Below are positions 11,346 to 54,540 of a DNA stretch of 64,000 nt, one piece after another (position 1 is the stretch's first letter; the number at the start of each line of letters is the position of its first letter). The notes beneath the pieces are model-generated. The model saw nothing but the letters and a program-made list of their open reading frames with translations. It was not told where the DNA came from and ran no database searches. Source of the stretch: Artemia franciscana (Eukaryota > Arthropoda > Branchiopoda > Anostraca > Artemiidae); NCBI RefSeq assembly GCF_032884065.1, contig NC_088879.1:23670038-23734037 (forward strand), given 5' to 3'. The position numbers and the translations under genes were made by a program.

Positions 11346-11369
11346 TTGTTACAAAATCGTCAAAGATAA

Positions 11370-18968: not shown

Positions 18969-20571
18969 GTATATTCGTATATGAAAGGGGCTGCTTGTTC
19001 ATTAACGCCCCGCTCTTTACGCTAAGGTTTGACTCTTTCCCTTAACTTTACTTTTTTTAAACAGTAAAAACTTTAGTGTAAAGAGCGGGGTGTTAATGAG
19101 GAAGCAGCCCCTTTCATATACGAAGTAATTTCTGTTCGTTTTAAGTTTTAATGTCTCTCCTTACTTTCCGTTAAAAAACTTGTTTTTCTTAATTTAATTT
19201 CTGAACGTTTTTGAATCAATACATGTTTGGATTTTGGCTCTCTGCAGATGAATAATTAAAACAAAATTTGTATATTTTTTTTTTGGCTAAATGGCTTTCT
19301 CATAATTTTGATCGAATGATTTTGAGAAAAAAGGAGCAGGGGAGGAGGCCTAGTTGCCCTCCGATTTTTTCGTTTCTTAAAAAGGTAGCTAGAACTTTTA
19401 ATTCTTTAAGAATGTTTTTATTAGTAAAAGATATACGTAACTTACAAATCAGCTTACGTAAAGAACTTCTGTATTTTCGTGTTTTATTCCGTATATGAAG
19501 GGGTTCACCCGGTCGTCAGTACCTCGCTCTTTACATTAAAGCTTAAATTTTGTCCCTATTTCTTAAGAATGACCCCTGAATCACAAATGCCGAAGAATAA
19601 ATAGTTGAAATTACTAAAAATACTTTAGCGTAAAGAGCGAGGTATTAGGAGGAGGTGAGCCCCTCATATGGGTAATAATTTCTGTTCGTTTTAAGTTTTA
19701 ATGCTGCTGCTTACTTCCAGCTGAAAAAGAAAACTTTTTCATAATTATTTTTTCATTGTTTTTTTTTTAAGTAATGCTGAGTAAAATCCAGGATTTTAAG
19801 TAAAATCCTGCGTTCCCTTCATGAAAATTTTCTTCCCACATGACATTCCTCCAAGGAAAGTTCCCCCAACATATCCCCTCTTATCAACACCCCCACAACC
19901 TAAAAATTCCCCTGAAAACGTGTGTACACTTCCGAATAACTGATACTATATGTAAGCACTGGTCAAAGTTTGTAACATGTGGCCCCTCCCACGGAACTGT
20001 GGGTCAGTAAGTCGTCCCCAAAGACATAGTCATAAGGTTTTTTGACTACGCTGAATAAAATAGCTATCTTAGAATTTTGATTTGGTTACTTTGGGAAAAA
20101 AATTAACGTGGGAGGGGGTCTAGGTGCCCTCCAATTTTTTGGTCACTTAAAAAGGGCGCTAGAACTTTTCATTTTAGTTTGAATGAGCCTTCTTGTAAAC
20201 AAACAAATAAACACGCATCTGTGATGTGCCTTCTGGCAAAAAATACAAAATTCCACATTTTTGTAGATAAGAGCTTGAAACTTCTACATCAGGGTTCTCT
20301 GATACGCTGAATCTGATGGTCTGATTTTCGATAGGATTTTATGACTTTTAGGGGTTGTTTCCCCCTATTTTCTAAAATAAGGCAAATTTTCTCAGGCTCG
20401 TAACTTTTGATCGGTATAACTAAACTTGATTAAACTTATATATTTAAAATCAGTATTAAAATGCAATTCTTTTGATGTAGCTATTGATAACAAAATTCCA
20501 TTTTTTAGAGTTTTAGTTGCTATTGAGCCGGGTCGCTTCTTACTATTCGTTACCACGAACTGTTTGATAAA
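18969..20571 (+). repeat. Family A copy 6
   Basis: The first border of the hairpin is clipped. The rest is complete: the large hairpin core (inverted GCCCCGCTCTTTACGC / TGTAAAGAGCGGGG at 19005-19090), the second hairpin at about 19520-19645, the distal arm, and a terminus in which the palindrome has lost a few bases (TACTATTCGTTACCACGAAC). Confidence 0.85.
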
Positions 20572-26349: not shown

Positions 26350-26690
26350 TGTTGGAAATAAAATGAAAAAAAGAAGTTTTTTAACTGAAATTAAGGAGTG
26401 ACATTAACGAACTGGAATTACTCCGCATATCAAAGGGGCTTTTCCATCATCAACGCCTTGCTCTTTACGCTGAAGTTTGACTCTTTTTCTCAAGTTTTCT
26501 TTTTAAAACAGCAAAAAACTTTAGCGTAAGGAGCGGGCCGTTGAGGAGGGAAAAACCCTTTTAATATACAGAGTAATTTCTGCTTGTTTTAAGCTTTAAT
26601 GTCGCTCCTTACTTTCAGTTAAAAAACTAGTTTTTTTTCATTTATTTGTGAACGTTTTTGGATTAATACATTTTTTTTCTGTTTTTTTTC
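26350..26690. repeat. Family A hairpin only (copy 9)
   Basis: Inverted boxes flank a core with TTTACGCTGAAG and ACTTTAGCGTAAGGAGCGG. No arm is attached. Confidence 0.75.
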
Positions 26691-28639: not shown

Positions 28640-29640
28640 CAAACGCTTTGTGGTAACGAAACGTAAGTAAGGAGCGACTGGAACGAATAGTTGATAAAAC
28701 TCTATAAATGAATAAAGGGGTGTTTCGAGAACAATTAATACACCTAAAGAGTCGGCTTTTTATGCTGATTGAATTATACAATATTCTTTAAGCCTAAATT
28801 TACCAATCAAAAGGTATGAACCTGAAAAAAATTGCCTGATTTTTGAGAAAAATTGCCTGATCTTTGCGGAAAACAACCCCAAAGGGACAAGTGATCTTGA
28901 TGAATAATATCAACTATCAAATTCCGCATACAGGAAGACCTGATTACCAAGTTTTCAAACTCCTATCAACCAAACGACGGATTTTTTTCGCTAGGAGAAA
29001 GATCACGGGTGCGTGTTAATTAGTTGGGAAAACAGTGTTTTCAGCCATTTTGTGGTACCAAATCACTATTTTGCTCAGCCCAAAGAGAACCAAAAAGAGG
29101 AGACCTCTAGGGACGAAAGTTCTCCTCGCACTGAGGAGATGATAGTTGATTGGGAAGTGGATTAATACTTAGTTTTCAAAGGCAAATGCACTAATGAGCT
29201 CTTTTCTCGAAGCATTGGTGTGCAAAGGTTAGATTATGATTTAAAGACTCAGATTTGAGGGGTGGTGGTCCTCCCAAACAAAGGTTAATCCTGGACATGC
29301 AACGAATAAAGAATAGAAATTAAATAGAGAGCAAGTATTCTCAAATGAAAGTGAGTAACAACATTAAAACTCTATAGAAACGGAAATGACCCCGAATATC
29401 ATGGGGGCAGTCCCCTCCTTGGTCTCCCATTTATAACACAAAAGCTTGGTTTTGTGTCCCAATCCTTGAAGAACATCTGCTCAAACCAAAGGTCCCTTTA
29501 ATTGAAATAAAAAGTGTTTTTAAACAACAAGAAAACTTAAGCACATAGAGCGGGAGGTTGAGGAAGGGGCTGCCTCCTGATATGCACGATAATTTCTGTT
29601 CGTTTGAAGTCTTATTCATTTGAGAAAACTTGTCTTTTTT
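28640..29640 (-). repeat. Very old family A copy (terminus, arm, hairpin module)
   Basis: A worn terminus at 28640 (CTTTGTGGTAACGAAACGTA, then AGGAGCGACTGG) is followed by recognisable arm positions (CCTGAAAAAAATTGCC, GGGAAAACAGTG) to about 29010. A degenerate hairpin module lies at 29310-29640. The middle, 29010-29310, cannot be assigned. Confidence 0.5.
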
Positions 29641-32285: not shown

Positions 32286-32740
32286 GGTAAAATTCTAGTT
32301 TAACTACTTTTTGCTATCTTAGAAAGGAGTTAGGTTAGGAACATGAAACTTTCAAGAATGGGTCTAAAGACTAAAGAATGGGTAAAATTCTAGAATTTAG
32401 TCTAGTTAAATACTAGTTAAATGCTTGATAATAATAGATTATAATAATTATAGTTAAATACTAGAATTAAATACTAGAATTTAATGTACTGCGAAGGTAT
32501 TTTGAAGTACCCACCTCCACTAATTCTTCCTCTAGAGGGCCCTGAAATTTGCCTACATGACAGGTCTATACCTACTGAAATTTTGACAAAACAACATTTT
32601 ACCTTAATTTTCAGTTACTAATTGCCCTTTCTCTGTCTTTGGTTCTGAAGATGCAATTCCTGTTATTTGAGTAGAATTCTGAGCCATAGCAGTTTTTTTT
32701 TCAAAATTTAGGAAATGTATTTGGATATCACGATCACGGG
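32286..32740 (+). repeat. Family B partial copy
   Basis: It starts GGTAAAATTCTAGTTTAACT. A small internal scramble with repeats of TAAATACTAG lies at about 32390-32480. It continues through the CTCTAGAGGGCCCTGAAATT box and stops in the central region near TTTAGGAAATGTATTTGGAT, where family A copy 11 begins. Confidence 0.7.
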
Positions 32741-33113
32741 TAATCACGGGTGACACGCACCCGTGATTTGTCTTCTGGCAAAAAATACAAAATTCTACAT
32801 TTTTGTAGATAGGGGCTTGAAACTTCTACAGTATGGTTCTCTGATACGCTGAAACTGATGGTGTCATTTTCGTTAAGATTCTACGACTTTTAGGGGGTGT
32901 TTCCCCCTATTTTCTGAAATAAGGCAAATTTTTCTCAGGCTCTTAACTTTTGATGGGTAAGACTAAACTTGATGAAACTTATATATTTAAAATCAGCAAT
33001 TAAATGCGATTCTTTTCATGTAGCTATTAATATCAAAATTAAATTTTTTAGAGTTTTGGTTACTATTGAGCCGGGTCGCTCCTTACTACAGTTTGTTACA
33101 ACGAACTGTTTGA
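32741..33113 (+). repeat. Family A copy 11, distal end only
   Basis: Only the last 370 bp of the arm are present, from the CACGCACCCGTGATTTGTCT box to the slightly altered terminal palindrome (AGTTTGTTACAACGAACTG) and TTTGATA. It is 5'-truncated. Confidence 0.8.
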
Positions 33114-33870: not shown

Positions 33871-35110
33871 TTTCAATGGTCTGTCATTAGTTTTTCGCTT
33901 CTTTTTTTGTGGCACTTGATATTAACCAATTCTGGTTAATTAGGAAAAAATAGAAAAAATGAAGTATTTTTAACTTATGAGCGGGTGATGGGATCTTAAT
34001 GAAATTTGATGTTTAGAATGATATTGTTTCTCAGAGCTCTTATTTTAAATCCTGAGCAGATTTGATGACATTGGGGGGGAGTTGGAGGGGGGAAACCTAA
34101 AATATTGGAAAACGCTTTTGAGTAGAGGGGTTGGCATGAAACTTGATGGTGAAAATAAGCAGAAGTCCTATATACCTGATTGATATAACCGAAACCAATC
34201 ATGATCCATTGGGAGGGGGAGGAGGGTTAATTCTGAAAAATTAGAAAAAATGAGGTATTTTTAACTTATGAAGGAGTGATCAGATCTTGATGAAATTTTA
34301 TATTTAGAAGGACTTCGGACCTTGATACGTGATTGATATACTTGGAACGGATACGATCTCTTGGGAGGGGGAGGGTTAATTCTGAAAAATTAGAATAAAT
34401 GACGTATTTTTAACTTACGAAGGAGTGACCGGATCTTCATGAAACTTCGTATTTAGAAGGACCTTGTAACTCAGATCTCTTATTTTAAATCTCAATCGGA
34501 TCCAGCGTCATATGGGGGGCAGTTGGGGGAGAGGGACCGGAAATCTTAGAAAATACTTAAAGCGGAGAGATCATGATGAAACTGGATCGGAAGAATAAAA
34601 ACAAGTCTAAGGTATGTGACTGACATAACCGGACCGGATTTGCTCGCTTTGGTGAAGTTGGGGGGGGAGGAGTAATTCGGAAAAAAAGGTGTTTGTAGCT
34701 TACGAACGGGTGACCAGATCTTAATGAAATTTGATATTTAGAACGGTGTTGTGCTTTAAAGCTCTTATTTTAAATTCCGACCAGATCCTATGACATCGGG
34801 GGGGGGGAGTTGGAGGGGGAAACTGGAATTCTTAGAAAATGTGAAAATTGGGCTACTTTTATCTTACGAATAGGTGATCAGATCTTAATGAAACTTGATA
34901 TATAGAAGGATCTCATGTCTTAGATGCTCCATTTTCGACTCGAATTTGATCCGGGGACATAGGGGGCTGGAGGAGGGAAACAGAGATCTTGGAAAACGCT
35001 TATAGTGAAGAGATCGGGATGAAACTTCATGGGAAGAATAAACACAAATTCTAGATACGTTATTGACATCATTGGAATGGATCCTTTCTATTTGGAAGAG
35101 CTGGGGGGTT
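33871..35110 (+). repeat. Family D tandem array 1
   Basis: The signature GATCTTAATGAAATTTGATA (or close variants) occurs near 33991, 34278, 34427, 34707 and 34870. Spacing alternates between about 285 and about 155 bp. Each full unit has the order: TTTTTAACTTACGA, signature, AGAAGGAC, CTCTTATTTTAAATCC, CCGGATC, G-rich run, TTAGAAAA(C/T)GC, GATGAAACTTGG, GACATAACCGGA, G-rich run. Short units lack the second half. Units are strongly diverged, so the array is old. No protein is encoded. Confidence 0.8.
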
Positions 35111-35527: not shown

Positions 35528-35691
35528 ATTAAATAAAAAAAAAGTTTGTTTTAACTGAAAGTTAGGAGCGACATTAAAACTTAAAACGAACAGAAACTAC
35601 TCCGTGTATAAAAGGGACTGTTCCTCCCTCAACGTCCCGCTCTTTTCGCTAAAGTTTTACTCTTACTCTAAATTCTACTTTATTCAATTCA
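35528..35691 (+). repeat. Family A copy 12, first piece (left hairpin arm)
   Basis: It begins ATTAAATAAAAAAAAAG and has CTGTTCCTCCCTCAACGTCC and the GCTCTTTTCGC stem, then breaks at CTACTTT. The complementary half (GAGCGGGACGTTGAGGGAGG) is at 42117, so this copy was split by the LINE and later insertions. Confidence 0.8.
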
Positions 35692-35885: not shown

Positions 35886-38800
35886 CTATCGGTAAAAGAA
35901 ATTAGGATCTAATTCAATATTTTCCATTAAGAAGCTTTTAATCTTACTTTTGAACTCTGGTAGGCTATTAGCATTTCTCAAAGTGTTTGGCAAATAATTC
36001 CATATTTTCGGTCCGGTAAATTTGATTGAAAAACCAGATGACGTGAGACGTCTCGTTTCTGTAACTAGTTGCGATGCATGTCGAGTATCATGTTGGTGAA
36101 TTTCATCATTCCTTCGAAAAGCTGACATAAACGACTCAGGTGCGGTATTTGTGCTTACTTTATATAAAATTTCGGCAATCTTTTTTTCTCGAAATTGAGC
36201 CACATTTAATATCTTAAGTCTTATTAAAAACGCCTTCAACTCTGACGAGACTCAAGCTTGCAAATTGCACGTATAGCTTTATTCTGAAGAATTTGAACTT
36301 GCTTCCATTCTGACTTATAGTTTGAAGCCCAAATGCTTATTCCATATAAAAGATATGAGTAGAATAGACTAAAATATAGGATAAGTAATATTTTATGGGG
36401 AAAAATAAATTTCAGTCTATGGAGAATACCAACAGCTCTTGACAGCTTCATACAAAGAAATTTAATGCGGATTGCCCAATCCAGCTTTTCATCAATTATT
36501 ATACCTAAATATTTAATGTGGTCAACTCGTTCAATTTTTTCGTGGTCTGCCGTATTTATCTTGCTGTCGTAAACTGGGTCATTTCCATGCTTAAAAATGA
36601 TATACTTCGTCTTTTTTTGTATTAAGGGAAAGCCCCCGCTCTTCAAAGAATTCAGTTGCTGCCTGGAGGCAAACTTCAGCGTTTGTAATTAGTTGCTCAC
36701 GGTTTTTATGTGTTAGAAATAGTACTATGTCGTCCGCAAAATTTATTATATATGCAAAGGGGATATCAGCCAAAAGTTAATTCACATAAATTAAAAAAGT
36801 AATGGTCCAAGAACTGATCCCTGGGGCACCCCACAAGTTGCATCAAATGGATCTGATAAGATACAATTAGCAAGTATTTTACTGCGTCTATTTGTTAAAT
36901 ATGACCGAATCCATTCAAGAACCGTCAACTTTATCCCATATCCTTCTAATGTTTCAAGAAGGATGTCAAAATCAACGAAATCAAAAGCTTTTGTTAAATC
37001 TAGAAAAATTGCCAGTGAATATAAACCATCATCTTGCGCCGCTTTTATATCCATTATAAGATCCGTAATTGCGAGTTCAGTGGATCTGTTTTTCCGGAAT
37101 CCATATTGTTTATCAGAAAGAATTTTATTAGCTTCAAAGTATTCATATAGTCTTTTTGCAGCAAGCTTTTCATATATTTTCGGAAAAATTGGAAGTAAGC
37201 TGATTGGTCGATAGTTATCAATTACTGTTGGGTCTCCTCCTTTAAAAAGTGGAATTAATTTGGATTCTTTTAGTTTAGTAGGGACAATACCTTCTTCAAG
37301 GTTTCTGTTTATAAGGACCGTAAGAGGCTCAATGATTGCTGGTTGTATTTTTCTTATTAGTTACAAAGAAAGTCCATCTAGGCCCGTTAATCTTGTCCCT
37401 TTAATTTCACAAATGCATTTTTTTACTTCATCACATGTAACAGATGAAAATTTTTACATTTCTGCCATTGTCTCTTGTTTCTTTAGTTTTGGAGGTGTTA
37501 CCTGTGTCATTAGTTTATTTTTTGATTTTGCATTCGACAGTTTATCTTTTATTTTTTGTCCTTTATTTACAAAAAAGGAACCAAGAAGACTTGAAATTTC
37601 TTCCGGTGATTTTATTGATTCTTTTTCACTTACTAGTTCTTTTATATGATGTATTTTTTCCGATTTATTTGGATCGATGACCGAATTAATTATTTGCCAA
37701 GTTTTCCTGGGGTTCCCATTTGCATTTTTAAAACTATTTTGAAAATATATTTCCTTTGCATTTCTTTTTAGCTGGTTTAACTTATTTCTATATTCTTTAA
37801 ACTGGTGAAAATTCTCTTCAGACGGATCATTTAAATATTGTTTATAAAGAGTTTTGCGGTTGTTAACAGAAACGAGAAGTCCCCACGTCATCCATGGCTT
37901 TCTGGGCAAATGCTTACGCTTTGGCTCCTTCAACACAGGACAGTGGTAATTATAACTGCTTGTAATTAAATCAATAAATGCCGAATACGCTGAATCTGAA
38001 TCAACGTGGGCTGGAAAAAAATCTTCCCACTGAATATAATTTAAGCTTAGTACCAGATCCGCAATATTTTTTTCTGACTCATCTCGCCGATTAAGCCTGT
38101 AATTCGTTTCTGACTTCATTTTACTTTTACCCGTCACTACTTCAATGAAAGTAGCAAAATGATCTGATGTTTGAAATAATAGCATTTCTACGAACTTTCT
38201 GACAATATTTTGGTGAGATACAAATATATTATCAATCAGAGTCGCGGACGTTGGGGTTACCCTTGTGGGTATTCGGACAGGTAACAGGTAACAATAGCAG
38301 GTAACAATATGACATACAGTTTTGAAGAAATAACAGATTTTTGTTATTTTTTAAAGATAGTAGATCCATATTAAAATCCCCAAGCATTATTAGCGGGTAC
38401 TGATGACACTTCAACTTTGTCAAAAGCTTTTCTAGTTCATCCATAAATATTTCCGTATCACCTGACGGGCTATGATATACCAACACCATTAGAATTTCCT
38501 GATGATTTAATTTTACCTTGAGACAGAATGACTAAAATATTCCTTCAACACGAACATTAAAATCAGGTATTAGCGAATAATCAAGTCCTTGTCGCACATA
38601 ATACGCTAGGCCACCTTTCCTTAGATTTTCACGGTTTAATACTTCTAACGAGAAACCCGTAATATCAAGCATTTTCTTATCCATACTCTCTGTAAGGAAC
38701 GTTTTTGTCAGTGCTAGAACATCAAATTGATTATTTCTACTAACAACTTCAGATATTTCATCATATGCTGTCTGTAATGACTGACAATTTAAGTGACCAA

Positions 38801-38966
38801 CCCTTAAGTCCGACTTATTTACCTTTTTCGAGCATTCACTTACATATCTGCATGATATAATATCTACCCATAATTCACTTTGTTCTTTGTCATCTTCACC
38901 TAGCGTTGTGTTTATCAGAGAATCCAGGCACAGGGGATTTTTTTCAAACTGTTCTAGTCGATTCAT
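35886..38966 (-). pseudogene. LINE ORF2: endonuclease plus reverse transcriptase
   Basis: The minus strand encodes an N-terminal endonuclease (HLNCQSL near 38800, then GGLAYYVR, MLGDFNMDLL near 38380, and TLIDNIFVS and SDHFATF near 38170). A reverse transcriptase follows (NYRPISLLPIF, GFRKNRSTELA, IFLDLTKAFDFVD, CGVPQGSVLGPLLF near 36800, NFADDIVLFLT near 36740) and then a C-terminal domain (FTGPKIWNYLPNTLRN). The FADD box is the RT catalytic site. Damage: a TAG at about 38535 in the endonuclease; a frameshift near 38290 beside a small tandem slip (GGTAACAATA repeated); stops near 37445 and 37370; a one-base loss in the T-run at 36786; further shifts near 36625 and 36240. Order and motifs fit the CR1/L2/Jockey group. 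The exact clade needs a tree. Confidence 0.85.
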
Positions 38967-39026
38967 CTGTATAACGCACTAAATGAACTAATTAATTAAT
39001 CACTAACCCAATGACTCCCTGTCTTG

Positions 39027-40080
39027 TTACATTACTGGTTGAGAAGGATCGGGCAATGCAATTATGTCATCGACATTCGTGATTCGCTTTGTAGTTGACC
39101 CGATTTTGACCATGATTTTTCCGTCTACTGTCCAAACATTCCAATTTCCAACTTTGTCTTTAGTAGCATTGAGGAGGTCTAGCCTCGCTTTAGTCTAAGA
39201 CTCAGAAATGAAGAGACCTGTTCCTTTTAATTTTTTTCTTTCACTCAGCACTCTTTTTGCCAACAAAACTGTTCTGAAGCTCACCTCAAAAGATGCCCCT
39301 CTCTCCTTTGTCTCGTTGCCAATCTTTCGAACATCACTTATATCGGCTATGCTGAGGTCACTAATTTCCAGCTTTTTTTTCATAATGTTCAACAGATTTG
39401 ATGACGCAGTTTGTGAGGCTGAAACCTCTTTTACGCCATGTATGACCAGCTTTGTTGCCTTTGCTTCCTGTTTCAAACAGTCAATCTCACACCATAGCGA
39501 ATTGACTGACTTTTCATAGGTCGAGATCATTTTTTAAATTCGCAGTAGTGACTTATGGTATAGTTCAAACTTCATGTCGTATTCGATCTTCAAACTGTCG
39601 TGGACAGCTTGAGTGATTTTTTCAATCTGAGAAATCGTAATTCCTGGCATATTTTCCTTTAGTTTTTCTACTTGTTTTGTGATTTCAGCAGAAACCGTTG
39701 TGCTAATATTGGCTTGATCGGACGCTATCTTGAGTGTTATTTGATCAAGCGATTCTCGAAGCGAAGTTGCGTTACTCAAGACAGTTCCACCAAGATCCAG
39801 ATTTTGAAGGATTTCTTTTAGTGCTTTTGCTACTGCGGGCCGTTTGTCAGTTTTGGCCACTTCATAACCAGCATCGTATGCCATTAGGGACCCAGCAGAA
39901 ACAATTGCGAGTTCATTTTTACCTCCGTAGCAGAGTACTTGGTACTTAACTTGACCGTCCTTAATTGGTATAACTTTTAGTATCTTCACGGGCCAGCTTT
40001 TGTAGTGTGTAAATCGGCAAAACACTGTTTCACCGATTGTAAATATCAGTGGGCGGGGACTGACTATATCTCGATACTCA
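39027..40080 (-). pseudogene. LINE ORF1 with PWWP-like N-terminus
   Basis: One minus-strand frame runs from about 40080 to the TAA at 39027, interrupted by a TAA at 39534 and a TAG near 39195. The N-terminal part reads GETVFCRFTHYKSWPVKIL, then YQVLCYGG and SAGSLMAYDAGYE. This matches the layout of a PWWP-type chromatin-binding fold (G-x-V-x-x-K/R, P/S-W-P-x-x-I/V, a V-x-F/C-[FY]-G strand, then an acidic end). A helical region follows (residues about 80-190). Next comes an RRM-like segment (LVIHGVKEV, FEVSFRTVLLAKRVL) and a C-terminal part (LDLLNATKDKVG, VWTVDGKIMVKIG) seen in ORF1 proteins of many LINEs that bind their own RNA. No ATG is found between the upstream stop and the PWWP-like part, so the true start is lost or further upstream. 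Confidence 0.65.
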
Positions 40081-40189
40081 AAGTTTGATTATAGTCCAAA
40101 AATACGGTAAATGACTTATCTTATTCGAGGTTTTTAATTAATTCAATATATAATCCTTTTTCCACCACTGGTTCAGATTCAGTCTTTTT

Positions 40190-41544
40190 ACAATTAAATA
40201 AAAAAAACTATTTTTCTTAGCTGAAAGTAAGGAGCGACATTAAAACTTAAAACGAACAGAAATTACTCCGTATATGGAATGGGTTGTCCCCTCCGCAATT
40301 CCTCGCTCTTTACGCTAAAGCTTTTAATTGTTTTAAAAAGTAGAATTGTGGCAAAGAGTCAAACTTTAGCGTAAAGAGCGAGGAATTGCGGAGGGGACAA
40401 CCCATTCCATATACGGAGTAATTTCTGTTCGTTTTAAGTTTTAATGTCGCTCCTTACTTTCAGTTAAAAAAATTAGTTTTTTTATATTTAATTTCTGAAC
40501 GTTTTTGAATTAATGCATGTTTGGTTTGGGCTCTCCACACATAAATTATTAAAATGAAATTTGTATATTAATTCTTTTTTTGGCTAAATGGCTTTCTCTT
40601 AGTTTTGATCAGACGATTTTGAGAAATAGGTGTGGAGAAGGAGGCCTAGTTGCCCTCCAATTTTTCGGTTACTTAGAAAGGCAACTAGAACTTTTGATTT
40701 TTAACGAACATTTTTATTAGTAAAAAATATACGTAACTTAAGAATTAACTTACGTAACAAACTATCATAACCTTATATTTTTATTATGTATACGAGGGGG
40801 TTTGTACCCTCGTTAATACCTCGCTCTTTACACTAAATCGTAAGTTTTGTCCCAATTCTTTAAGAATGACCAGGAATCAGAAAGGCCGTAGAATAAATAG
40901 TTGAAATCACTAAAAATATTTTAGCATAAAGAGCAAGGTATTTATCTCCTCCTAAATACCTCGCTCTTTATGCTAAAGTATTTTTAGAACCCCTCATATG
41001 CGTAATAATCTCTGTCCGTTTTAAGTTTCAATGCTACTTCTTCCTTTCATTTGAAAAACCGTTTTCATGTTTATTTTTCATTGTTTTCTTATAGTAATGC
41101 AAGAGAATCCTGCGGCCTTTTCATTGAATTTTTCTTCCCCCCATGACAGATTCCTCCAAGGAAAGATCCTCCAACATAGCCCCCTCTCCTCAGCCCTACA
41201 CCAAAACAAAATAAAATCCCCCTGAAAACGTCTATACACTTCCCAATAACCATTACTATGTGTAAACACTGGTCAAAGTTTGTAACTTGCAGCCCCTCCT
41301 CCAGTGATTGTGGGGGAGTAAGTCATCCTCAAAGACATAGTTATTATGGTTTTCGACTATGCTGAGCAAAATGGCTATCTCAAAATTTTGATCCGTTGAC
41401 TTTGGGGAAAAAATGAGCGTGGGAGGGGGCCTAGATGCCCTCCAATTTTTTTGGTCACTTAAAAAGGGCACTAGAACTTTTCATTTCCGTTAGAATGAGC
41501 CCTCTTGTGGCATTCTAGGACCACTTGGTCGAAACGATGACCCC

Positions 41545-41629
<85 letters not shown>

Positions 41630-41995
41630 ACGCACCCGTGATTTGTCTTCTGGCAAAAAATTACAAAATTCCACATTTTTGTAGATAGGAGCTTGAAACT
41701 TCTACAGTAGGGTTTTCTGATACGCTGAATCTGATGGTGTCATTTTCGTTAAGATCTTACGACTTTTAGGGGGTGTTTTCCCGTATTTTCTTAAATAAGG
41801 CAAATTTTCTCAGGCTCGTAACTTTTCATGGGTAAAACTAAACTTGATGAAACTTATATATTTAAAATCAGCACTAAAATGCGATTCTTTTGATGTAGCT
41901 ATTGATATCAAAATTCAATTTTTTAGAGTTTTGGTTACTATTGAGCCGGGTCGCTCCTTACTACAGTTCGTTACCACGAACTGTTTGATATTCAC
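40190..41995 (+). repeat. Family A copy 13, near-complete
   Basis: This is the best-preserved single-ended copy. The large hairpin is at 40190-40495 with stems CTCGCTCTTTACGCTAAAG / CTTTAGCGTAAAGAGCGAG. The second hairpin is at about 40815-40975, then the proximal and distal arms, and the terminal palindrome CAGTTCGTTACCACGAACTG ending at about 41983. The internal A-run has expanded (41548-41628). Confidence 0.9.
41548..41628 (+). repeat. Poly(A) run of 81 bases
   Basis: Uninterrupted A81 at the position where other family A copies have a short A-rich stretch (before the CACGCATCCGTGATC box). It is an internal expansion rather than a retrotransposon tail. The length may be unreliable in an assembly. 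Confidence 0.9.
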
Positions 41996-42082: not shown

Positions 42083-43169
42083 ACTTATTAAACAGTAAAT
42101 AACTTTAGCGTAAAGAGCGGGACGTTGAGGGAGGAACGGCCCCTTTCATACACGGAGTAATTTCTGTTCATTTTAAGTTTTAATGTCGCTCCTTACTTTC
42201 AGTTAAAAAAAACTTTATTTTTTTTATTTAATTTCTGAACGTTCTTGAATTAATGCATGTTTCATTTTGGCTCTCCACAAATGAATAATTAAAACGAAAT
42301 TTGTGTATTAATTTGTTTTTTTTTTGCTAAGTGGCTTTCTCTTAGTTTTGATCAGACGATTTTGAGAAAAAGGGTGGGTTAGGAGGCCTAGTTGCCCTCC
42401 AATTTTTTGGTTGCTTAAAAAGGCAACTAGAATTTTTAATTTTTAGCGAACGCTTTTATTATTAAAAAATATACATAACCTACAAATTAACTTACGTAAC
42501 GAACTTCTATACGTATATTTTTATTATGTATATGGGGGGGGTTGCCCCCTCGTTAATACCCCACTCTTTACACTAAAGCTTTGATTTTGTCCCAATTCTT
42601 TAAGGTTAACCCCCTGAATCACAAAGGCTGTAGAATAAATAGTTGAAATTACTAAATACTTTAGCGTAAAGAGCGAGCTATTTAGGAAGAGATGGATCAC
42701 CCATATTCGTAATAATCTCTGTCTCTTTTTAAGTAATGCTTAACTTTTTAACTTTCAGTTGAAACAATTTTTTCATATTCTTTTTTTTTTAATAATGCTA
42801 TAAAATCCTGCGCCCTCTTCATGGAATTTATCTTCTCCCATGAGAAATTCCTCCAAGGGAAGATCCTCCCACGTAGCCCCCTTCCCTCAACCCCCCTCCC
42901 CCACTAACCAAAAAATCATCCTAAAAATGTCTGTACCTCTGAAAAAAAAAAAAAATTAACACACACCCGTGACCGGTCTTCTGGCAAAAATATCAAGTTC
43001 CACATTTTTGTAGATAAGAGCTTGAAACTTCTACTGTAGGGTTCTCTGATACGCTGAATGCGATGGTGTAATTTTCGTTAAGATGGTATTACTTTTAGGG
43101 GGTTGTTCCCCCTATTTTCCCAAACTAGGCAAATTTTCTCAGGCTCGTAACTTTTGATGAGTGATGAAA

Positions 43170-43175
<6 letters not shown>
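42083..43175 (+). repeat. Family A copy 12, second piece
   Basis: It starts in the hairpin loop (AAACAGTAAATAACTTTAGC) with the half complementary to 35528-35691, then the proximal arm, second hairpin (42560-42690), a shortened middle and distal arm. It breaks at GATGAAACTCATATATAT, where the (TA)n tract and Helitron interrupt it. Confidence 0.85.

Positions 43176-43243
<68 letters not shown>
43176..43243. repeat. (TA)n microsatellite, left of Helitron
   Basis: About 68 bp of TA dinucleotides; the tract resumes at 45126 on the other side of the Helitron. In other family A copies this position reads ACTTATATATTTAAAATCAG, so the tract grew from the short ATATAT in the arm. Confidence 0.9.
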
Positions 43244-43244
<1 letters not shown>

Positions 43245-45122
43245 TAGCTGTTGGGGTGGCGCTTCGCGCCACCCCAACACCTAGTTGGTGGGGGCGCTTC
43301 GCGCCCCCCCCAAGCCCCCCCGCGCGCGTAAGTCGTTACGCGCCATAATAGTTACGCGCCATTGTAGTTATGTCCCTATGTCCCACCTGTGAATATAGAT
43401 ATATATATATATATGGTTTTAACTACGTAAAACTTGCGAATATACAACATTCTTTGCTGTCCCATTGTCTTTGCATATAAATAGATTGTCAGGTTATCCC
43501 CCTGTTTCCCCCGGTGTCCCCGTTGTAGTTGTGTCCCTGTGTCCCGGTCGTCATTTATATTCCCTGTGTCCCGGGTCCCGGTCATCATTTGTATCCCGGT
43601 GTCCCGGTCTGTATATACATTCGTTTTTTAGTTTTGTTTTTCTCCTTTATTTTTTTCCTTATTTTTTCTTTTTTAGCTTATTTAGATTTTTAGATTTTTT
43701 AGTTTTTTTTATTAGTTTTTAGTTTTTATTTCTTTTTAGTTTTTTTGTCCCGGTCGTCATTTATATCCCCCTGTTTCCCCCGGTGTCCCCGTTGTAGTTG
43801 TGTCCCTGTGTCCCGGTCGTTATTTATTTTTTAGTTTTTTACCTTTTTTTAGTTTTTTTAGTTTTTTAGCTTTTTTATTTTTTTTATTAGTTTTTAGTTT
43901 TTTTGTAGTTTTTGCCTTTTTTTTAGTTTTTTTAGTTTTTTAGCTTTTTTATTAGTTTTTAGTTTTTTTTGTGTCCCGGGTCCCGGTCATCATTTGTATC
44001 CCGGTGTCCCGGTCTGTATATACATTCGTTTTTTAGTTTTGTTTTTCTCCTTTATTTTTTTCCTTATTTTTTCTTTTTTAGCTTATTTAGATTTTTAGAT
44101 TTTTTAGTTTTTTTTATTAGTTTTTAGTTTTTATTTCTTTTTAGTTTTTTTGTCCCGGTCGTCATTTATATCCCCCTGTTTCCCCCGGTGTCCCCGTTGT
44201 AGTTGTGTCCCTGTGTCCCGGTCGTTATTTATTTTTTAGTTTTTTACCTTTTTTTAGTTTTTTTAGTTTTTTAGCTTTTTTATTTTTTTTATTAGTTTTT
44301 AGTTTTTTTGTAGTTTTTGCCTTTTTTTTAGTTTTTTTAGTTTTTTAGCTTTTTTATTAGTTTTTAGTTTTTTTTGTAGTTTTTGCCTTTTTTTAGTTTT
44401 TTTAGTTTTTTAGCTTTTTTATTTTTTTTATTAGTTTTTAGTTTTTTTTGTAGTTTTTGCCTTTTTTTAGTTTTTTCAGTTTTGACGTCACCTGATCCAG
44501 TTTTTTCAGGTGACGTCACCTGATCCACGATCCACAGATCCACAGACAACTTATTTTTATATATATAGATAGTTTTTTTTTTTACTTATGTCCTGGTCGT
44601 CATTTATACTCCCTGTGTCCCGGTGCTTTGTTGATTGCTAATCGAACATTCCTTTTGTCCTGGTCGCTTTCTCTTTGAGTGTCGTCATTTATTAGTTTTT
44701 TCCTTTTTTTTTAGTTTTTTATTGGTTTTTACCTTTATTTTAGCTTATTTTTCAGTTTTTTCCTTTTTTTTAGTTTTTTTTTATTTTTTATTTTTTTTAG
44801 TTTTTTACCTTTTTTTAGTTTTTTTAGTTTTTTTAGTTTTTTAGCTTTTTTACTTTTTTTATTAGTTTTTAGTTTTTTTTTGTAGTTTTTGCCTTTTTTT
44901 AGTTTTTTCAGTTTTTTTTTTTAGTTTTTTATTGGTTTTTACCTTTATAGTTTTTTTAGTTTTTTAGCTTTTTTATTTTTTTTATTAGTTTTTAGTTTTT
45001 TTTTGTAGTTTTTGCCTTTTTTTAGTTTTTTCAGTTTTGACGTCACCTAATCCAGTTTTTTCAGGTGACGTCACCTGACACATCCATCCACACATCCATC
45101 CACAACTTATTTTTATATATAT

Positions 45123-45125
<3 letters not shown>
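43244..45125 (-). mobile_element. Non-autonomous Helitron
   Basis: Read on the minus strand, the 5' end is A|TCTATATATATAAAAATA (TC at 45125) and the 3' end is a 12-bp stem hairpin (TTGGGGTGGCGC, TTC loop, GCGCCACCCCAA at 43251-43277) followed by CAGCTAG|T. This fits canonical Helitron rules: a TC start, a GC-rich hairpin, a CTAG end, insertion between A and T, and no target duplication. It landed inside a (TA)n tract. No Rep/helicase is present; the interior is TTTTTAG-rich with many GTCCCGGT boxes. A second 5' terminus lies at 44569 (same GACGTCACCTGATCC...CTTATTTTTATATATATAGA arrangement), so two 5' ends share one 3' end. Confidence 0.85.
43566..44375 (+). repeat. 405-bp tandem duplication within the Helitron
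   Basis: The block starting GTGTCCCGGGTCCCGGTCAT at 43566 repeats at 43971 (offset 405). By eye the two copies are identical over their full length, so this is a very recent duplication or an assembly feature. Confidence 0.85.
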
Positions 45126-45159
<34 letters not shown>

Positions 45160-45278
45160 CAGCATAAAAATCCAATTCTTTTGATATATGTATTGGTATC
45201 AAAATTCTGTTTTTTAGAGTTTCATTTACTATTGAGCCGGGTCGCTCCTTACTACAGTTCGTTACCACGAACTGTTTG
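45126..45278 (+). repeat. (TA)n remainder and family A copy 12, last piece
   Basis: The (TA)n tract continues to about 45157, then AAAATCAGCATAAAAATCCA and the distal arm down to the terminal palindrome and TTTGAC. It completes copy 12, which therefore spans 35528-45278 with three interruptions. Confidence 0.85.
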
Positions 45279-45334
45279 ACAAACAACTACAAAGTAGAAA
45301 CAATATGGGAAAATCTTTTCAAGACAGTTGAAAT

Positions 45335-45580
<246 letters not shown>

Positions 45581-45658
45581 ATACATTAAAATGTGAGAAT
45601 TAAAACTAATAATATTTTTTTTAAAAAAACAGCCTTAGCATTCTTACTTCAACGAAGT

Positions 45659-47155
45659 CAAACAGTTCGTGGTAACGAACTGTAGTAAGGAGCGACCCGG
45701 CTCAATAGTAACCAAAACTCTAAAATATGGAATTTTGATATCAATAGCTACATCAAAAGAATCGCATTTTAAGCTGAATTATAAATATATAAGTTTAATC
45801 AAGTTTAGTCTTACCAATCAAAAGTTACGACCCTGAGAAAATTTGCCTTATTTTGGAAAATAGGGGGAATCAACCCCTAGAAGTAACAGAATTTTAACCA
45901 AAATCACACCATCAGATTCATCGTATAAGAGAAATCTTTTGCAGAAGTTTCAAGCTCCTATCTACAAAAATGTGGAATTTTGTATTTTTTGCCAGAAGGC
46001 AGATCACGGATGCGTGTTTTTTTTCAGGGGTGATCGTATTGACCCATGGTTTTAGAATGTTGCGATAGGGCTCATTCTAACGGAAATGAAAAGTTCTAGT
46101 GCCCTTTTTAAGTGACCACAAAAATTGGAGGGTACCTAGGCCCCCTCCCACGCTATTTATTTTCCCAAAATCAACGGATCAAAATTCTGAGATGGCCAAT
46201 TTATTCAACGTAGTCGAAAAACCTTATAACTATGTCTTTGGGGACCACTTACTCCACCACATTCCCCCTGAGAGGGCCTACAAGTTAGAGGGGATATGTT
46301 GGGGGAACTTTCCATCGAGGAATTTGTCATCGGGGAAGAAAATTTACATGAAGGGAGCGCAGGATTTTCTAGCATTATTTACAAAAAAAAAAAATATAAA
46401 AAAGTTTTTTCAACTGGAAATAAGTAGCAGCATTAAAACTTAAAACGAACAGAAATTAATAAGCACATGAGGGGCTCACCTTCTCCTAATACATCGCTCT
46501 TTACGCTAAAGTATTTTTAGTAATTTCGACTATTTATTCTACGGCTTTTGTGATTCAGGGGACATTCTTAATGAATTGGGACAAAATTTAAGCTTTAGTG
46601 TAAAGAGCGAGGTACTGACGAGTATATAGGTACTAAAAACATGAGAATACAAAAGTTCGTTACGTAAGCTAATTTATAAGTTACGTATATCTTTTACTAA
46701 TGAAAACATTCGTAAAAAATTAAAAGTTCTAGTTGCCTTTTTAAGTAACCAAAAACATTGGAGGGCAACTAGGCCTCCTCCCCCACTTCTTTTTTCCCAA
46801 AATCTTTCGACCAAAACTATGAGAAAGCCATTAAGCAAAAAAAAAATATATATATATGCAAATTTCGTTTTAATTAATCCTCTGCGGAGAGCCAACATCA
46901 AAACATGCATTGATTCAAAAACATTTAGAAATTAAATAAAAAAAAGCTTTTTAGCTGAAAGTAAGGAACGACATTCAAACGAACAGAAATTACTTCGTAT
47001 ATGAAAGGGGCTGCTTCCTCAAACTTTAGCGTAAAGAGCGGGACGTTGATGAGGAAGCAGCCCCTTTCATATACGAAATTATTTCTGTTCGTTTTAATTT
47101 TTAATATCGCTCCTTACTTTCAGTTAAAAAAAACTTCTTTTTTTTAATTTAATTC
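45659..47155 (-). repeat. Family A copy 14, nested in the Penelope-like element
   Basis: It starts with TCAAACAGTTCGTGGTAACG, runs through distal and proximal arms, and ends in a shortened large hairpin (46930-47150). The loop between GCTGCTTCCTC and AAACTTTAGCG is deleted. It lies inside the Penelope-like element, so family A was mobile after that insertion. Confidence 0.85.
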
Positions 47156-47479
47156 AACCAGGAATGACAAATAGAATGAAGTGAGATGGTAAATTCACTC
47201 AAACAAAACAGAACAAAGTGATTAAATACAAGTTTTCAGAGCCAACCTTGCATTTTTGGCAGCCTGCCTCAAAGGACTTTTCATAACTGGTTCAATACTA
47301 TTATAAATCGGTTAAGTAAAATATTTTGTTGTATCATTTTTAATTAAATTTGAGCATAAAGAATTTAGTGAGAACTCCCCCAAGTCCCTGTTGAAAGAAA
47401 TATTATTATTTATTTTGAGACTAATTTCGATAGATTCCCGAACCACCTGTTTTATCCTAAATCACTACTGATGGTTGAA

Positions 47480-49640
47480 GATTTTTCAAAAAGTACCGTG
47501 TGGAAGGAATTATTAAATATATGCCGACCTAAAGCAGGATCAAAGGAGTTGTTGGAACTATTAGAAATTAATGCCCTGTCTATGTCTTTTTTATACTGTT
47601 GTAGCCGTTTTTCTAGATTCTGATGTGTCCTGCCAACATAGCAATTTCCACAGTCAAAAGGTATTTGATAGACTCCTCTTTGGAGAGTAACTGGGGTCTT
47701 ATCTTTACCAGAATTTAAGAAATTAAATGATTTGAAAATTATTAGTAAAAACTACATATAGATTATTTTGTGTGCAAATATTTTTTAATTTTGTTGTGAT
47801 TTTTGGGATATGCGGAAGACAGACAATATTTGAGGGCTTATCAGTAGCTTCACATTGTGAAATATCTTCTTAGATTTTACAAGAATACTTTTTTAGTCTA
47901 CGGTTAATTATCTTATTGACAAAAGGAAGGGGGTATCCATTACAAAAAAGAATATCCCTGATAAAGTTTATTTCTGCATTTATATACGAATTGGAGCAAA
48001 CGTTCAGGACACGATCAATGAGAGAAGTTACAACTGCTCTTTTAACTTGTGTGTGTGGGGGGGGGTGATTTGAATTAAAGTGAAGATATCTATTGTTTTG
48101 AGTTGGCTTTCGACAAATAGTAAAATCCACTTTATCAGCATTATGAATAATTTATTTTCAGTTTCTTTTCAGAAGGTAGTTTATTTTCAATTTCAACTTC
48201 TAGGGTGAACTGCAAATTTTGGACATAAGTGTTAAGATGATCTAAGAAGCCCCAAAGTTCAGCTTCCCTGTAATTCCAAAATGAAATTACGTCGTCCATA
48301 TAACGACCCCAATAGACATGTTTTAAAAAATAAGAATTTAATGACCAATTTTCAAGGTTCTCAACATAAATATTTGCGAGTAGCCCGGACAAAAAGTGCT
48401 CCCATAGGAAACCCATTTGTTTGCTGATAAAAAGAATCGCGAAATTGAAAGTACATAAAAAACTTATTACAAATTTTATTCAGAGTCATTAAAACTTCAC
48501 AATCAATTCCTGTCGCTGAAACCTCGATTATGTGCTAATTTTCTTCTATTTTTTTTTTAATAATTCCTCAGAAATAGTCACATCTATATTCGTATACATG
48601 GAAACAGTGTCAAAACTACTAACTATTGTGTTTTCTGAAATGCTTGTCCTACTAAGTTTTTTTAATTAAATCTGCCGAATTACAAATATAGGAATTTTGG
48701 TATTGGAATAAAGGTTTGAAAGCTGTGCAAAGCCATTTCCCATTATTGGCATCGGGGGCTTTAGTATAGGGAATACCTTGTTTATGTATTTTTGGTAAAC
48801 CATAGAGTTTGGGACAGAAACTACCACTTGGGAAAAATTTATTCTATAAAATGTGGGGTGATATACCATTTTGTTTTAGCTGCTTTAATACAATTATAAT
48901 ATTATTAACAAACAGATCAGTAGGATCATGAGTTATTGTTTATATGTAATTGTGTCATTTAAATGCGAAAGAATTTTTTTGTCATAGTCTGTCGTATTCT
49001 AGACAACAAATGAATTGCCTGTGTCTGCTTTAGTTATTATAATAGAAGGGCGGAGATTAGATAGTATTTTTATGTCGTGCAAATTTTTTGGTGTGGAAGT
49101 GGTAGGAGGGTTTAACCTTTTTTTGGCTGTTATAAAGGGTAATTATAAGACCAGATCTAACTTCATCAGGGTTAGAAACAGATGTATAGTGTTTATGCAA
49201 AGCGGACTCTAGAGAGGAAACTATATCTGCGAAAGGAACTTGTTTCGGTAGAAAGGAGAATTTTGGACCTTTTTCCAGTATTTCGATTTCCTGGGGCTCC
49301 AAAGTGTTAGAAGAGAGGTTAACAATAGCAGGTCCAGGAGTGAATCTTGGCGAATAAATACGGTTTCTCATCTAAGATTCATTTCTCAAGCCTTCCAATT
49401 TTTTATTGAGGCGTTCCTTGGACAAGCAAAAATCATGGCTAAACAAATTCCTTTCTAATCCAACAACTTGAGCAAAATCAACAGTGGACAGGTTTTCCAA
49501 CAAAAAAGTTTCCAACGATTTCCTCTCTGGAGAAATTATATGTCTTTTTTGTTTTTTGTTCTTAATAATATGGACTAAGGTTTTTAACTGTAGTGTATGG
49601 GGAAATTGCGCTTCTTTCCGGGTATTTAAATGTAATTTAT
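47480..49640 (-). pseudogene. Penelope-like RT with GIY-YIG endonuclease
   Basis: Minus-strand motifs in order. N-terminal region: SPERKSLETFLLENLS near 49520, a stop, then NLSSNTLEPQE and EKGPKFSFLP near 49290. RT: IIITKADTGNSFVV near 49020, LYGLPKIHKQGIPYT near 48780, LLANIYVENLENW near 48370, YWGRYMDDVISFW near 48290, and RYLHFNSNHP and VKRAVVTSL near 48040. Linker: CLPHIPKITTKLK near 47810. GIY-YIG: GVYQIPFDCGNCYVGRTHQN at about 47676-47617, then LEKRLQQY and FDPALGRHI. The YMDD box is the catalytic site. It is a canonical endonuclease-positive Penelope architecture. At least four frameshifts and several stops kill it. Confidence 0.85.
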
Positions 49641-49724
49641 ATCTTAAAGACTATAAAGACTGTTAAACTTAAAAAAGTTTAAAAAAAAACATTATTAGTT
49701 TTAATTCTCACATTTTAATGTAAG

Positions 49725-49730
<6 letters not shown>

Positions 49731-49819
<89 letters not shown>
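49731..49819. repeat. (TA)n microsatellite in right terminal repeat
   Basis: About 89 bp of TA steps, the counterpart of 45391-45577. Confidence 0.9.
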
Positions 49820-49823
<4 letters not shown>

Positions 49824-49833
49824 CTCTTTCTCG

Positions 49834-49884
49834 TATTGTGCTGAAGACGGCCCTTGGAAACAGGGCCGATATTTTCACAAAATT
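49834..49884 (+). ncRNA. Hammerhead-like ribozyme motif, right copy
   Basis: On the plus strand: ATTGTG, CTGAAGA, CGGCCC, an 8-9 nt loop, GGGCCG, ATATTTT, CACAAAAT. CTGAAGA fits CTGANGA. Stem II is a perfect 6-bp GC-rich helix, and stem I pairs TTGTG with CACAA. The GAAA box has become GATA, so this copy too has one core change. The other copy has the complementary defect, and a consensus of the two would satisfy the hammerhead core. It is antisense to the RT gene, upstream of it. Confidence 0.5.
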
Positions 49885-49935
49885 GATTTCCACTATCTTG
49901 AAAAGATTTGTCCTATTGTTTCTATTTTGTATTTG

Positions 49936-50309
49936 TTTATTATGTTGAAGAGGACAAACAGGCAGTATGTAGCAAACAAATTTTAGATCTAAAGTAAAAA
50001 TCCATAAAAGATAAAAAGCATGACTTGAGAGAATATGAACATTTGTCTGATTCTCTGATCATTTATTTATTTATATTTTTTTGTCGGGTTGGATAGATGC
50101 CTTGGCAGTATTCAGTAATCAAACTTTTAAAATTCGTTAATGGTTAATTTTTCCTTGCTTTATTTTCCTGGCCAACATCAAATCATCCTCTTTTCTGCCT
50201 CTCTTCTTCGTCTCTCTTTTGATTTATTTTTATTGTGCTGATTTTGTTGCCTAGTCTCTCAATAAGAAAATATTGACTTGTTCATCGTTAATCTGGCCTC
50301 GTTTTAAGT
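49936..50309. other. Unique DNA, no gene
   Basis: Nothing recognised between the Penelope-like element and family A copy 15. Confidence 0.35.
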
Positions 50310-50744
50310 TTGAATAAAAAAAAATAATAAAGTTTTTGTAACGGTAAGTAAGGAGCGACATTAAAACTTAAAACGAACAAAAATTACTCCGTATATGAAA
50401 GGGACTTTTCCTCCTCAATGCCTCGCTCTTTACGCTAAAGTTTGACCCTTTCTCTTAACTCTACGTTTTAAAACAGTAGAAAACCTTAGTGTAAAGAGCG
50501 GGGCGTTGAGGAGGAAAAGTCCCTTTCATATACGGAGTAATTTCTGTTCGTTTCAAATTTCAATGTCGCTCTTTACTTACCGCTACAAAAACTTGTTTTT
50601 TTTTATTTAATTTCTGGACGTGTTTGAATTAATGCATGTTTTAATCTTGGCTCTTCGCACAAAAATAATTAAAAAGAAATTTGCATATTAATTAATTGCA
50701 ATTAATCGGAAGATTTTGAGAAAAAAGAAGCGGAGGAGGCCTAG
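50310..50744 (+). repeat. Family A copy 15, first piece
   Basis: Large hairpin at 50315-50615 with stems CCTCAATGCCTCGCTCTTTA and its inverse, followed by the start of the proximal arm. It breaks at AGGCCTAG (50737-50744), the target site of the hAT element. Confidence 0.85.
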
Positions 50745-53304: not shown

Positions 53305-54540
53305 GGGCCTAGTTACCCTCCAAGTTTTTGATTACTTAAAAAAGCAACTAGAACTTATAATTTTTTACAAACGTTTTCATTGGTAAAAAATATACGTAAC
53401 TTGCGAATTAACTTACGTAACGAACTTCTATATTCGTATGTTTTTATTGCGTATATGAGGGGTTCAACCCTCGTCGATACTTCGCTTTTTACACTAAAGC
53501 TTAGATTGTGTCCCAATTCCTTAAGAATAACCTCTGAATCACAAAGGCCGCAGAATAAATAGTTGAAATTACAAAAAATACTTTAGCGGAAAGAGTGAGG
53601 TATAACGAGGAGGTAAACCCCTCATATGCGTAATAACTTTGGTTCGTTTTAAGTTTTAATGCTGCTCCTTACTTTCAGTAGGAAAAACTTTTCATATTTA
53701 TTTTTTCATTGTTTTTTTTTTAAATAAAGCTAGAAAATCCTGCGCCCCCTTCATTGAAATTTTCTTTTATTATGAGAAGTCTCTCCATAGAAATATCCTC
53801 CCACGTAACCCCCCCCCCCCCCCCTCAACTCTCCCCCTAAACCCAAAAAATCCCCCTGAAAACGTCTGTACACTTCCCAGTAACCATTACTATATGTAAA
53901 CACAAGTCAAAGTTTTCAACTTGCAGCCCCTCCCACGGTGACTGCGGGGGAGTAAGTCGTCCCTAAAGACATAGTTATTAAGTTTTTCGACTATGGTGAA
54001 TAAAATGGTTATCTCAGAATTTTGATCTGGTGACTTTGGGGGAAAATGAGCGTGGGAGGGGGCCTAGGTGCCCTCCAATTTTTTGGTCACTTAAAAAGGG
54101 CACTAGAACTTTTAATTTCCGTTAGAATAAGCTTTTTCGCAAGATTATAGGACCACTCAGTCGATACGATCATCCCTGGGGGAAAAACAAAATAAAAAAC
54201 AAGAAAACAAATAAACACGCATCCGTGATCTGTCTTCTGGCAAAAAATGCGAAATTCCACATTTTTGTAGATAGGAGCTTAAATCTTCTACAATAAGGTT
54301 CTCTGATACGCTGAATCTGATGGTGTTTCCCCCTATTTTCTAAAATGAGGCAAATTTTCCCAGGCTCGTAAATTTTGATGGGTATAACTGATTTTGATTA
54401 AACTTGTATCTTTAAAATCAGCATTAAAATTCGATTCTTTTGATGTAACTATTGGTATCAAAATTCCATTTTTTAGAGTTTCGATTACTATTGAGCCGGG
54501 TCACTCCTTACTACAGTTCGTTACCACGATCTGTTTGATT
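53305..54540 (+). repeat. Family A copy 15, second piece
   Basis: It continues the proximal arm after the hAT target site (GCCTAGTTACCCTCC), then the second hairpin (53470-53600), a C-run at 53808-53825, the distal arm, and a terminus with one change in the palindrome (CCACGATCTG). The two pieces together give about 1.67 kb, a full unit. Confidence 0.85.

Follow-up and report, generated by a model that had tools for sequence, protein, structure and literature searches.

A non-coding repeat of Artemia franciscana with a 300-bp terminal hairpin probably moves like a Helitron2/Helentron derivative

Within a 64,000-nucleotide stretch of the Artemia franciscana genome (the window, whose own numbering is used throughout), many copies of one repeat, here called family A, carry a long hairpin at one end and a different terminus at the other. 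This layout raises the question of what kind of mobile element family A is, how it moves, and how its hairpin changes from copy to copy. We read it as a non-coding DNA element, mobile in the manner of a Helitron2/Helentron derivative, whose hairpin has been remodelled by template switching, and we give this reading a probability of roughly 0.64. The serial-hairpin architecture with unlike ends, first described in an earlier note on this DNA, is borne out by the type copy, A13, which combines a 5′ hairpin of about 300 bp with a degraded inner hairpin and a 3′ palindrome.

A BLAST search of the window with A13 as query found 18 copies and fragments (A1–A18, on the plus strand unless marked otherwise); short old pieces at 1413–1571 and 17108–17169 and a tail at 18868–18972 were left out of this count. 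The repeat is abundant, as had been reported, with a copy number above the first estimate of about fifteen. The 3′ end is kept in 13 of the 18 copies and the base of the 5′ hairpin is reached by ten. Both ends are present in five: A7 (23341–26321), which is interrupted by A8 (23878–25583, minus strand); A8 itself; A13 (40194–41988); A15 (45658–47152, minus strand), which has lost its loop; and A18 (1595–2264), which is deleted internally from the loop to the S2 module. Further entries are A1 (4120–5220), with an intact 5′ end and a truncated 3′ side; A2 (9776–11340) and A5 (18972–20567), both truncated at the 5′ side within the hairpin; A3 (11573–12987, minus strand), the most diverged copy in our tree; A4 (13165–13552), with a hairpin of the inner type (H2) at its apparent 5′ end; and A6 (21709–22912, minus strand) and A14 (42090–45279), which start inside the loop. 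A9 (26356–26675) consists of the hairpin only, A11 (32753–33113) of the 3′ tail only, and A12 (35529–35690) of the left arm plus a partial loop. A16 (50310–50700) is a hairpin truncated on its 3′ side, A17 (53306–54538) is truncated on its 5′ side, and A10 (28641–29614, minus strand) is old and broken into a tail (28641–29017), a right arm (29315–29418) and a left-arm piece (29517–29614), its 3′ hairpin being decayed.

A13 and its nearest full relative, A8, are 88–90% identical, so the type copy is fresh, as it had been called, in a relative sense only. A1, A2, A5 and A18 are 86–91% identical in pairwise comparison, with the exception of A1/A18 (0.66 over a short overlap), and long mobility of the family, also proposed earlier, is supported. 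We considered whether A13/A14 and A7/A9 could each be parts of one rolling-circle concatemer and rejected this, as sequence of another kind fills the spacers (about 100 and 34 bp) and the start of A14 lies within the loop. Separately, a segment at 11366–11673, made up of spacer and an old A3-type tail, is duplicated at 18647–18969 (93%), and A5 begins where this duplicate breaks off. The satellite DNA that splits A14 is foreign to the family and includes two head-to-tail copies of about 405 bp (43565–44377) that are 100% identical, a duplication that is either very recent or an assembly artefact.

Several other repeats share the window. The region 45281–49938 is probably a Penelope-like element, a name that we derive from a GIY-YIG match (47455–47751), an RVT_1 match below the Pfam cut-off (48144–48479) and pieces of 45281–45626 that are repeated in inverted orientation at 49678–49938. 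Its GIY-YIG and reverse transcriptase pieces lie on the minus strand and its inverted repeats are rich in (AT)n. A15 lies inside this region, whose border is directly adjoined by the 3′ end of A14; the insertion of family A into a Penelope-like element, as suggested before, is thus probable for A15. The paralogous empty sites of A14 and A15 match on one side only and were not used as evidence. Remains of a non-LTR retrotransposon occupy 35889–40088 on the minus strand (RVT_1 at 36794–37360, PWWP below the cut-off at 39537–40088), and A13 starts about 105 bp past them. Related repeats lie far apart at 33934–35108, 59200–60767 and 2503–2730, and the stretch 34168–34501 is a tandem repeat with a 149-bp unit (TRF). 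A palindrome of 242 bp at 56590–56831 matches its own reverse complement at 95%, and the family A query has no match there.

Eight of the 13 copies with a 3′ end are without a 5′ end. A SINE-like or Penelope-dependent passenger would be consistent with these truncations, with the probable Penelope-like element nearby and with an A run inside A13 (41548–41628). However, this A run is internal rather than terminal, so that the reported lack of a poly(A) tail stands for the end of the element and not for its interior, and a tRNA search found none, in line with the reported absence of a tRNA-like promoter. Furthermore, the outer 5′ ends are sharp in seven of ten copies, and by our own count six of the eight missing 5′ ends break inside the hairpin, the break in the decayed A10 being uncertain. 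Such a concentration of breaks in the hairpin is expected for an unstable palindrome and fits this better than an early stop of reverse transcription. We therefore regard a retroelement as highly improbable.

The ends of family A do not vary randomly between copies. TTAAAT forms the start in seven of the ten copies that reach the hairpin base (A1, A7, A8, A12, A13, A15 and A18), and the host base before it is A in all seven. A16 starts with a one-base variant preceded by T, and the starts of A9 and A4 read differently. At the other end, TTTGA is found in 12 of 13 copies, with A10 as the exception, and is followed by T in nine of these 12, by C in A14 and A15, and by A in A7. The C after A14 may be secondary, because a repeat shared with 49938 has its border at this position too. 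From these starts and ends, the type element therefore spans 40194–41988 (1795 bp, TTAAAT ... CTGTTTGA, flanked by host A and host T), which corrects the initial extent of 40190–41995.

The nested copy A8 allowed us to reconstruct an empty site. Its flanks in A7 align without gap or overlap to three sister copies, with the junctions at 4706/4707 in A1, 10319/10320 in A2 and 53446/53447 in A17. In A5, two bases stand opposite three, and in A13, A14, A15 and the matching segment of A8 the alignment stops before the junction on at least one side. This precise, duplication-free insertion is the single one for which a two-sided empty site was obtained, and its cut position can slide by 1–2 bases because the site is A/T-rich. 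The insertion target looks like A followed by T, or AA followed by TA. When the junctions of all 18 copies were scanned for direct repeats, no constant target-site duplication appeared and no repeat exceeded 6 bases; 6-base repeats occur near A5 (AAAGTA) and A15 (GTTGAA), and 5-base repeats near A13 and A17. A one-ended insertion of A5 with a 6-bp duplication was also considered and was indistinguishable from chance.

These sites bear on whether a DDE transposase could move family A as an element of the foldback or MITE type. Its long inverted repeats, its many copies and its lack of coding capacity would all suit such an element. On the other hand, the duplication-free empty site and the lack of a constant target-site duplication across the 18 copies argue against it, as do the two ends, which are not inverted repeats of each other beyond a 13-nt box and a few neighbouring bases. 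Together, these points make a DDE-type element quite unlikely.

The 5′ hairpin of A13 (H1, 40192–40493) is about 300 bp long, its first two bases being host sequence by the chosen boundary. Its arms (40201–40323 and 40361–40483) measure 123 nt each and are 97% complementary, and they enclose a loop of 45 nt (40320–40364). The predicted DNA fold reaches −143.4 kcal/mol, compared with −28.4 for 100 shuffled sequences (z −31.9). Within the left arm, 32 nt from the 5′ end, lies the 13-nt inverted box AGTAAGGAGCGAC (ATIR/subTIR, 40226–40238), and its inverse is found in the opposite arm at 40446–40458. The 3′ inverted box (41950–41962, minus strand; GTCGCTCCTTACT on the plus strand) is located 26 nt from the 3′ end and is the exact inverse of the 5′ box, in support of the earlier idea that the terminal box is related to the hairpin box. 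The 3′ hairpin adjoins it directly (41963–41984) with a 9-bp stem and a 4-nt loop, ACAGTTCGT-TACC-ACGAACTGT, and is followed by TTGA.

The recurrence of hairpin boxes, likewise noticed before, goes far beyond chance. More specifically, GAAAGTAAGGAGCGACATTA has 26 matches in the window with up to 3 mismatches (0.00 expected), TTTAGCGTAAAGAGCG has 40 with up to 2 mismatches (0.01 expected), and AGTAAGGAGCGACCCGG has 14 with up to 3 mismatches (0.05 expected). The last 60 bp are also more strongly conserved than the remaining tail, with 93.4% and 85.0% identity, respectively (11 copies, 55 pairs; of the copies with a tail, the two that diverge most, A3 and A10, are not included). In A3 and A10 the 3′ hairpin folds no better than shuffled sequences (165 and 43 of 200 as good), and in A7 it folds weakly better (16 of 200 as good). 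An Rfam scan gave no match above the gathering scores.

The terminal plan of family A resembles that published for Helitron2, Helentron and HINE elements, which comprises a shared inverted box, no target-site duplication, and gene-less forms (PMC3627910, PMC4067079); the earlier remark that no described class with this layout was known is accordingly not supported. In Helitron2, a 5′ box sits within a 5′ hairpin, and an inverted 3′ box immediately precedes a hairpin, at a distance of about 20–30 bp from the 3′ end (PMC3627910). Family A shares both arrangements, with its 5′ box in an arm of H1 and its 3′ box 26 nt from the end and directly upstream of the 3′ hairpin. Non-autonomous Helitron2 families are described as mostly lacking target-site duplications and as including 5′-truncated copies (PMC3627910), and the nested insertion of family A is without a duplication, next to the 6-bp repeats near A5 and A15. 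Helitron2 begins with T (PMC3627910), which TTAAAT fits, with a boundary that is movable by 1–2 bases at an A/T-rich site. In contrast, the Helitron2 5′ box is placed 0–2 bp from the end and insertion occurs after TTTT (PMC3627910), whereas in family A the box lies 32 nt from the 5′ end, the 5′ hairpin is far larger and the target is A followed by T.

HINE/DINE-1 elements are gene-less, non-autonomous Helentrons with a similar terminal plan and boxes of 11–15 nt (PMC4067079, PMC7492417, PMC2374699). They share with family A a 3′ palindrome and inverted boxes in subterminal position that measure 11 bp or more; in family A, the box has 13 nt and the palindrome a 9-bp stem. Differences are seen in the insertion site, which is TT or T-rich in HINE/DINE-1 and A followed by T, or AA followed by TA, in family A, and in the 5′ terminus, where a short inverted repeat contrasts with the giant hairpin described here. 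In mite HINEs, the 5′ box lies 2–4 nt from the end, the 3′ box about 38–60 bp and the palindrome about 8–35 bp from the 3′ end, compared with 32, 26 and 4 in family A. Canonical Helitrons (Helitron1) differ by their 5′ TC and 3′ CTRR termini, as opposed to TTAAAT and CTGTTTGA, and are alike in inserting between A and T, which agrees with the A before seven of seven and the T after nine of 12 family A copies.

When stop-to-stop frames of the window with a length of at least 75 aa were compared with Pfam (E 0.01; 108 frames, low-complexity ones dropped), none matched a Rep or helicase family, so that a RepHel like that of Helitron2 was not found among them. The Pfam families seen here are six: RVT_1, two endonuclease/phosphatase models, GIY-YIG, PWWP and FtrD-like. 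As to an existing name, five box stretches of family A matched no paper in the open-access literature searched, and a sixth matched only two papers, apparently on unrelated subjects. A search of viral and prokaryote contigs with a 20-nt pattern had no match. As several published features differ and the defining protein was not found, we describe family A as working like Helitron2/HINE rather than as a proven member, and we infer the rolling-circle step and its enzyme.

The interior of the element suggests that it has more than one 5′ end. The inner hairpin H2 (40781–41058 in A13) is degraded, and the order of modules is the same in both halves, with H1 followed by S1 (40583–40700) and H2 followed by S2 (41366–41486). 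Pieces of the hairpin arms are 74–87% identical between H1 and H2 in A13, A1, A2 and A5, with one 17-nt piece reaching 94%, and S1 matches S2 at about 77% identity in each of A13, A2 and A5, while A1 ends before S2. H2 is therefore read as a relic 5′ end, giving an element with two 5′ termini before one 3′ terminus. In A4, the outer end carries a loop of the H2 type (direct score 67, against at most 25 for shuffled sequences), at an apparent 5′ end that is not sharp because its outermost bases are a poly(A) run. A separate pair of repeats (404–1236 and 8924–9781, 88% identical) contains a diverged S-like module on the opposite strand (68–74%), as if this module were common to several elements.

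Multiple 5′ termini have a precedent in FoHeli, the Helitrons of Fusarium oxysporum, in which several 5′ termini before one 3′ terminus are explained by self-insertion (PMC5148889). FoHeli and family A have in common non-canonical ends with inverted boxes and hairpins, and multiple 5′ termini in some copies. They are also alike in the insertion site, which in FoHeli lies between TNAT and A (T in one legend) and in family A between A and T. They differ in that the repeated FoHeli 5′ ends are the first 73 or 85 nucleotides, and the passages concerned mention no long palindrome (PMC5148889). Self-insertion is visible within family A as well, in the form of A8 in A7, but in opposite orientation.

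The two arms of the 5′ hairpin are coupled within copies. Among the 40,320 possible pairings of left and right arms in the eight copies with at least 79 comparable columns in each arm, the true pairing is the best (0.868, compared with a mean of 0.802). It remains the best of 5,040 without A8, a close relative of A13, and 20,000 random pairings of all 11 copies in which both arms are at least partly present all fall short of the true value. In the set without A8, the parts of the arms next to the loop and at the outer end carry a strong signal. The middle third, in which the copies all resemble one another, carries a weak one (49 of 5,760 sampled pairings did as well as the true one). Within single copies, the identity of the two arms is highest in A13 (98%) and A1 (97%) and lowest in A4 (69%) and A3 (66%). 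It exceeds the best same-arm identity elsewhere, on both sides, in three of the 11 copies (A1, A13 and A16), so the coupling is clear across the set and strong in some copies only. The private changes that both arms of a copy have in common come in multi-base patches.

The loop occurs in two orientations. Of 13 copies that could be scored, nine are flip (A1, A2, A5, A7, A9, A12, A14, A16 and A18) and four are flop (A3, A6, A8 and A13), with small margins in A3, A6, A12 and A14. The flip call in A14 is based on 29 nt (score 30, best shuffle 26), and the flop call in A6 on a broken hairpin. In a tree of the non-hairpin part, which covers 12 of the 18 copies, flip A14 is grouped with flop A8 and A13 at 96% support and A6 is placed elsewhere; flop copies thus do not form one clade. 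Tree and orientations together call for at least two inversions, and a third is required if the orientation read from the broken A6 hairpin is accepted.

Fold-backs are present at two further places, in support of the earlier proposal that the element grew by fold-back copying. A duplication of 78 bp at 40910–40987, found in A13 and A8 only, turns the arrangement X-Y of the sister copies into X-rcY-rcX. In A7, the 3′ hairpin has been replaced by TTACTACAG-TT-CTGTAGTAA (26294–26313), the stem that folds weakly better than shuffles. As a side observation, at the 5′ junction of A11, the copy reduced to its 3′ tail, element and host flank together make up an inverted repeat (32720–32770, CACGGGT...ACCCGTG), possibly another fold-back junction.

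Arms could in principle be kept alike by structural selection alone, through paired point mutations without copying. Helitron2 hairpins do show compensatory changes, and their structure is assumed to matter (PMC3627910). However, multi-base patches and inversions of a whole loop are not produced by point mutation, which makes selection alone an unlikely account. Template switching in replication, by comparison, generates perfect new stems, grouped multi-base compensatory changes and fully inverted loops (PMC8794818), outcomes that are all present in family A. The published cases concern rRNA and microRNA genes with mostly short stems and loops (PMC8794818), while family A is mobile and has arms of 123 nt and a loop of 45 nt. 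We infer that template switching is the source of the coupled arms and inverted loops and that it takes place during transposition, probably on folded single-stranded intermediates.

Such copying may instead occur during ordinary replication of the palindrome. We consider a single-stranded transposition intermediate the likelier setting because A1 and A13 have near-perfect arms, whereas those of the diverged A3 and A4 are decayed; given the small number of copies, age is confounded with mechanism in this contrast. The two loop orientations, the coupled arms and the terminal palindrome also recall rolling-hairpin replication, in which every transposition would copy the whole 5′ palindrome from one end to the other, as happens in parvoviruses, and the loop would flip in each round. 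Orientation in family A nevertheless looks inherited, with A1, A2, A5 and A18 all flip and A8 and A13 both flop, whereas flipping in each round should mix orientations among near relatives (with the qualification that the relationship among these copies is not very close). At the 3′ end, a palindrome comparable to that of the 5′ end is missing. Parvovirus-like flip-flop was accordingly set aside as the main reading, and we judge it very unlikely.

Taken together with template switching, movement like that of a Helitron2/Helentron derivative would proceed as follows. A Rep/helicase encoded elsewhere would nick the 5′ end of family A and peel off one strand, stopping at the 3′ inverted box and hairpin, and the freed strand would be joined between A and T of the target without duplicating it. 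The second 5′ terminus, H2, would have been left behind as after self-insertion or tandem copying. During copying, the polymerase would switch template onto the opposite arm, which would keep the arms alike and occasionally invert the loop, and this switch would be easiest while the element is a folded single strand. A further-reaching and doubtful version is that self-primed fold-back synthesis renews the 5′ end as part of transposition, each round recopying one arm and sometimes inverting the loop. If true, family A would combine hairpin-primed replication with rolling-circle transposition in a working cross, with old 5′ ends accumulating within the element.

While the layout of family A has precedents, the turnover of its hairpin appears to be undescribed for such elements. 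A search of the open-access literature found no description of how the arms and loop of such a hairpin behave in Helitron-type elements, and the HINE/DINE-1 passages mention neither fold-back turnover nor loop inversion, both of which are present in family A.

To our knowledge, the DNA intermediate of Helitron-type elements is not settled for all groups. A 5′ hairpin that records template switches as arm patches, inverted loops and fold-backs would provide a countable trace of a single-stranded stage, with switch events expected to cluster on transposing branches and to be absent from copies that are merely resident in the genome. Family A furthermore illustrates a way in which a short hairpin at a terminus could lengthen to 300 bp, and in which 5′ ends that have gone out of use become part of the interior.
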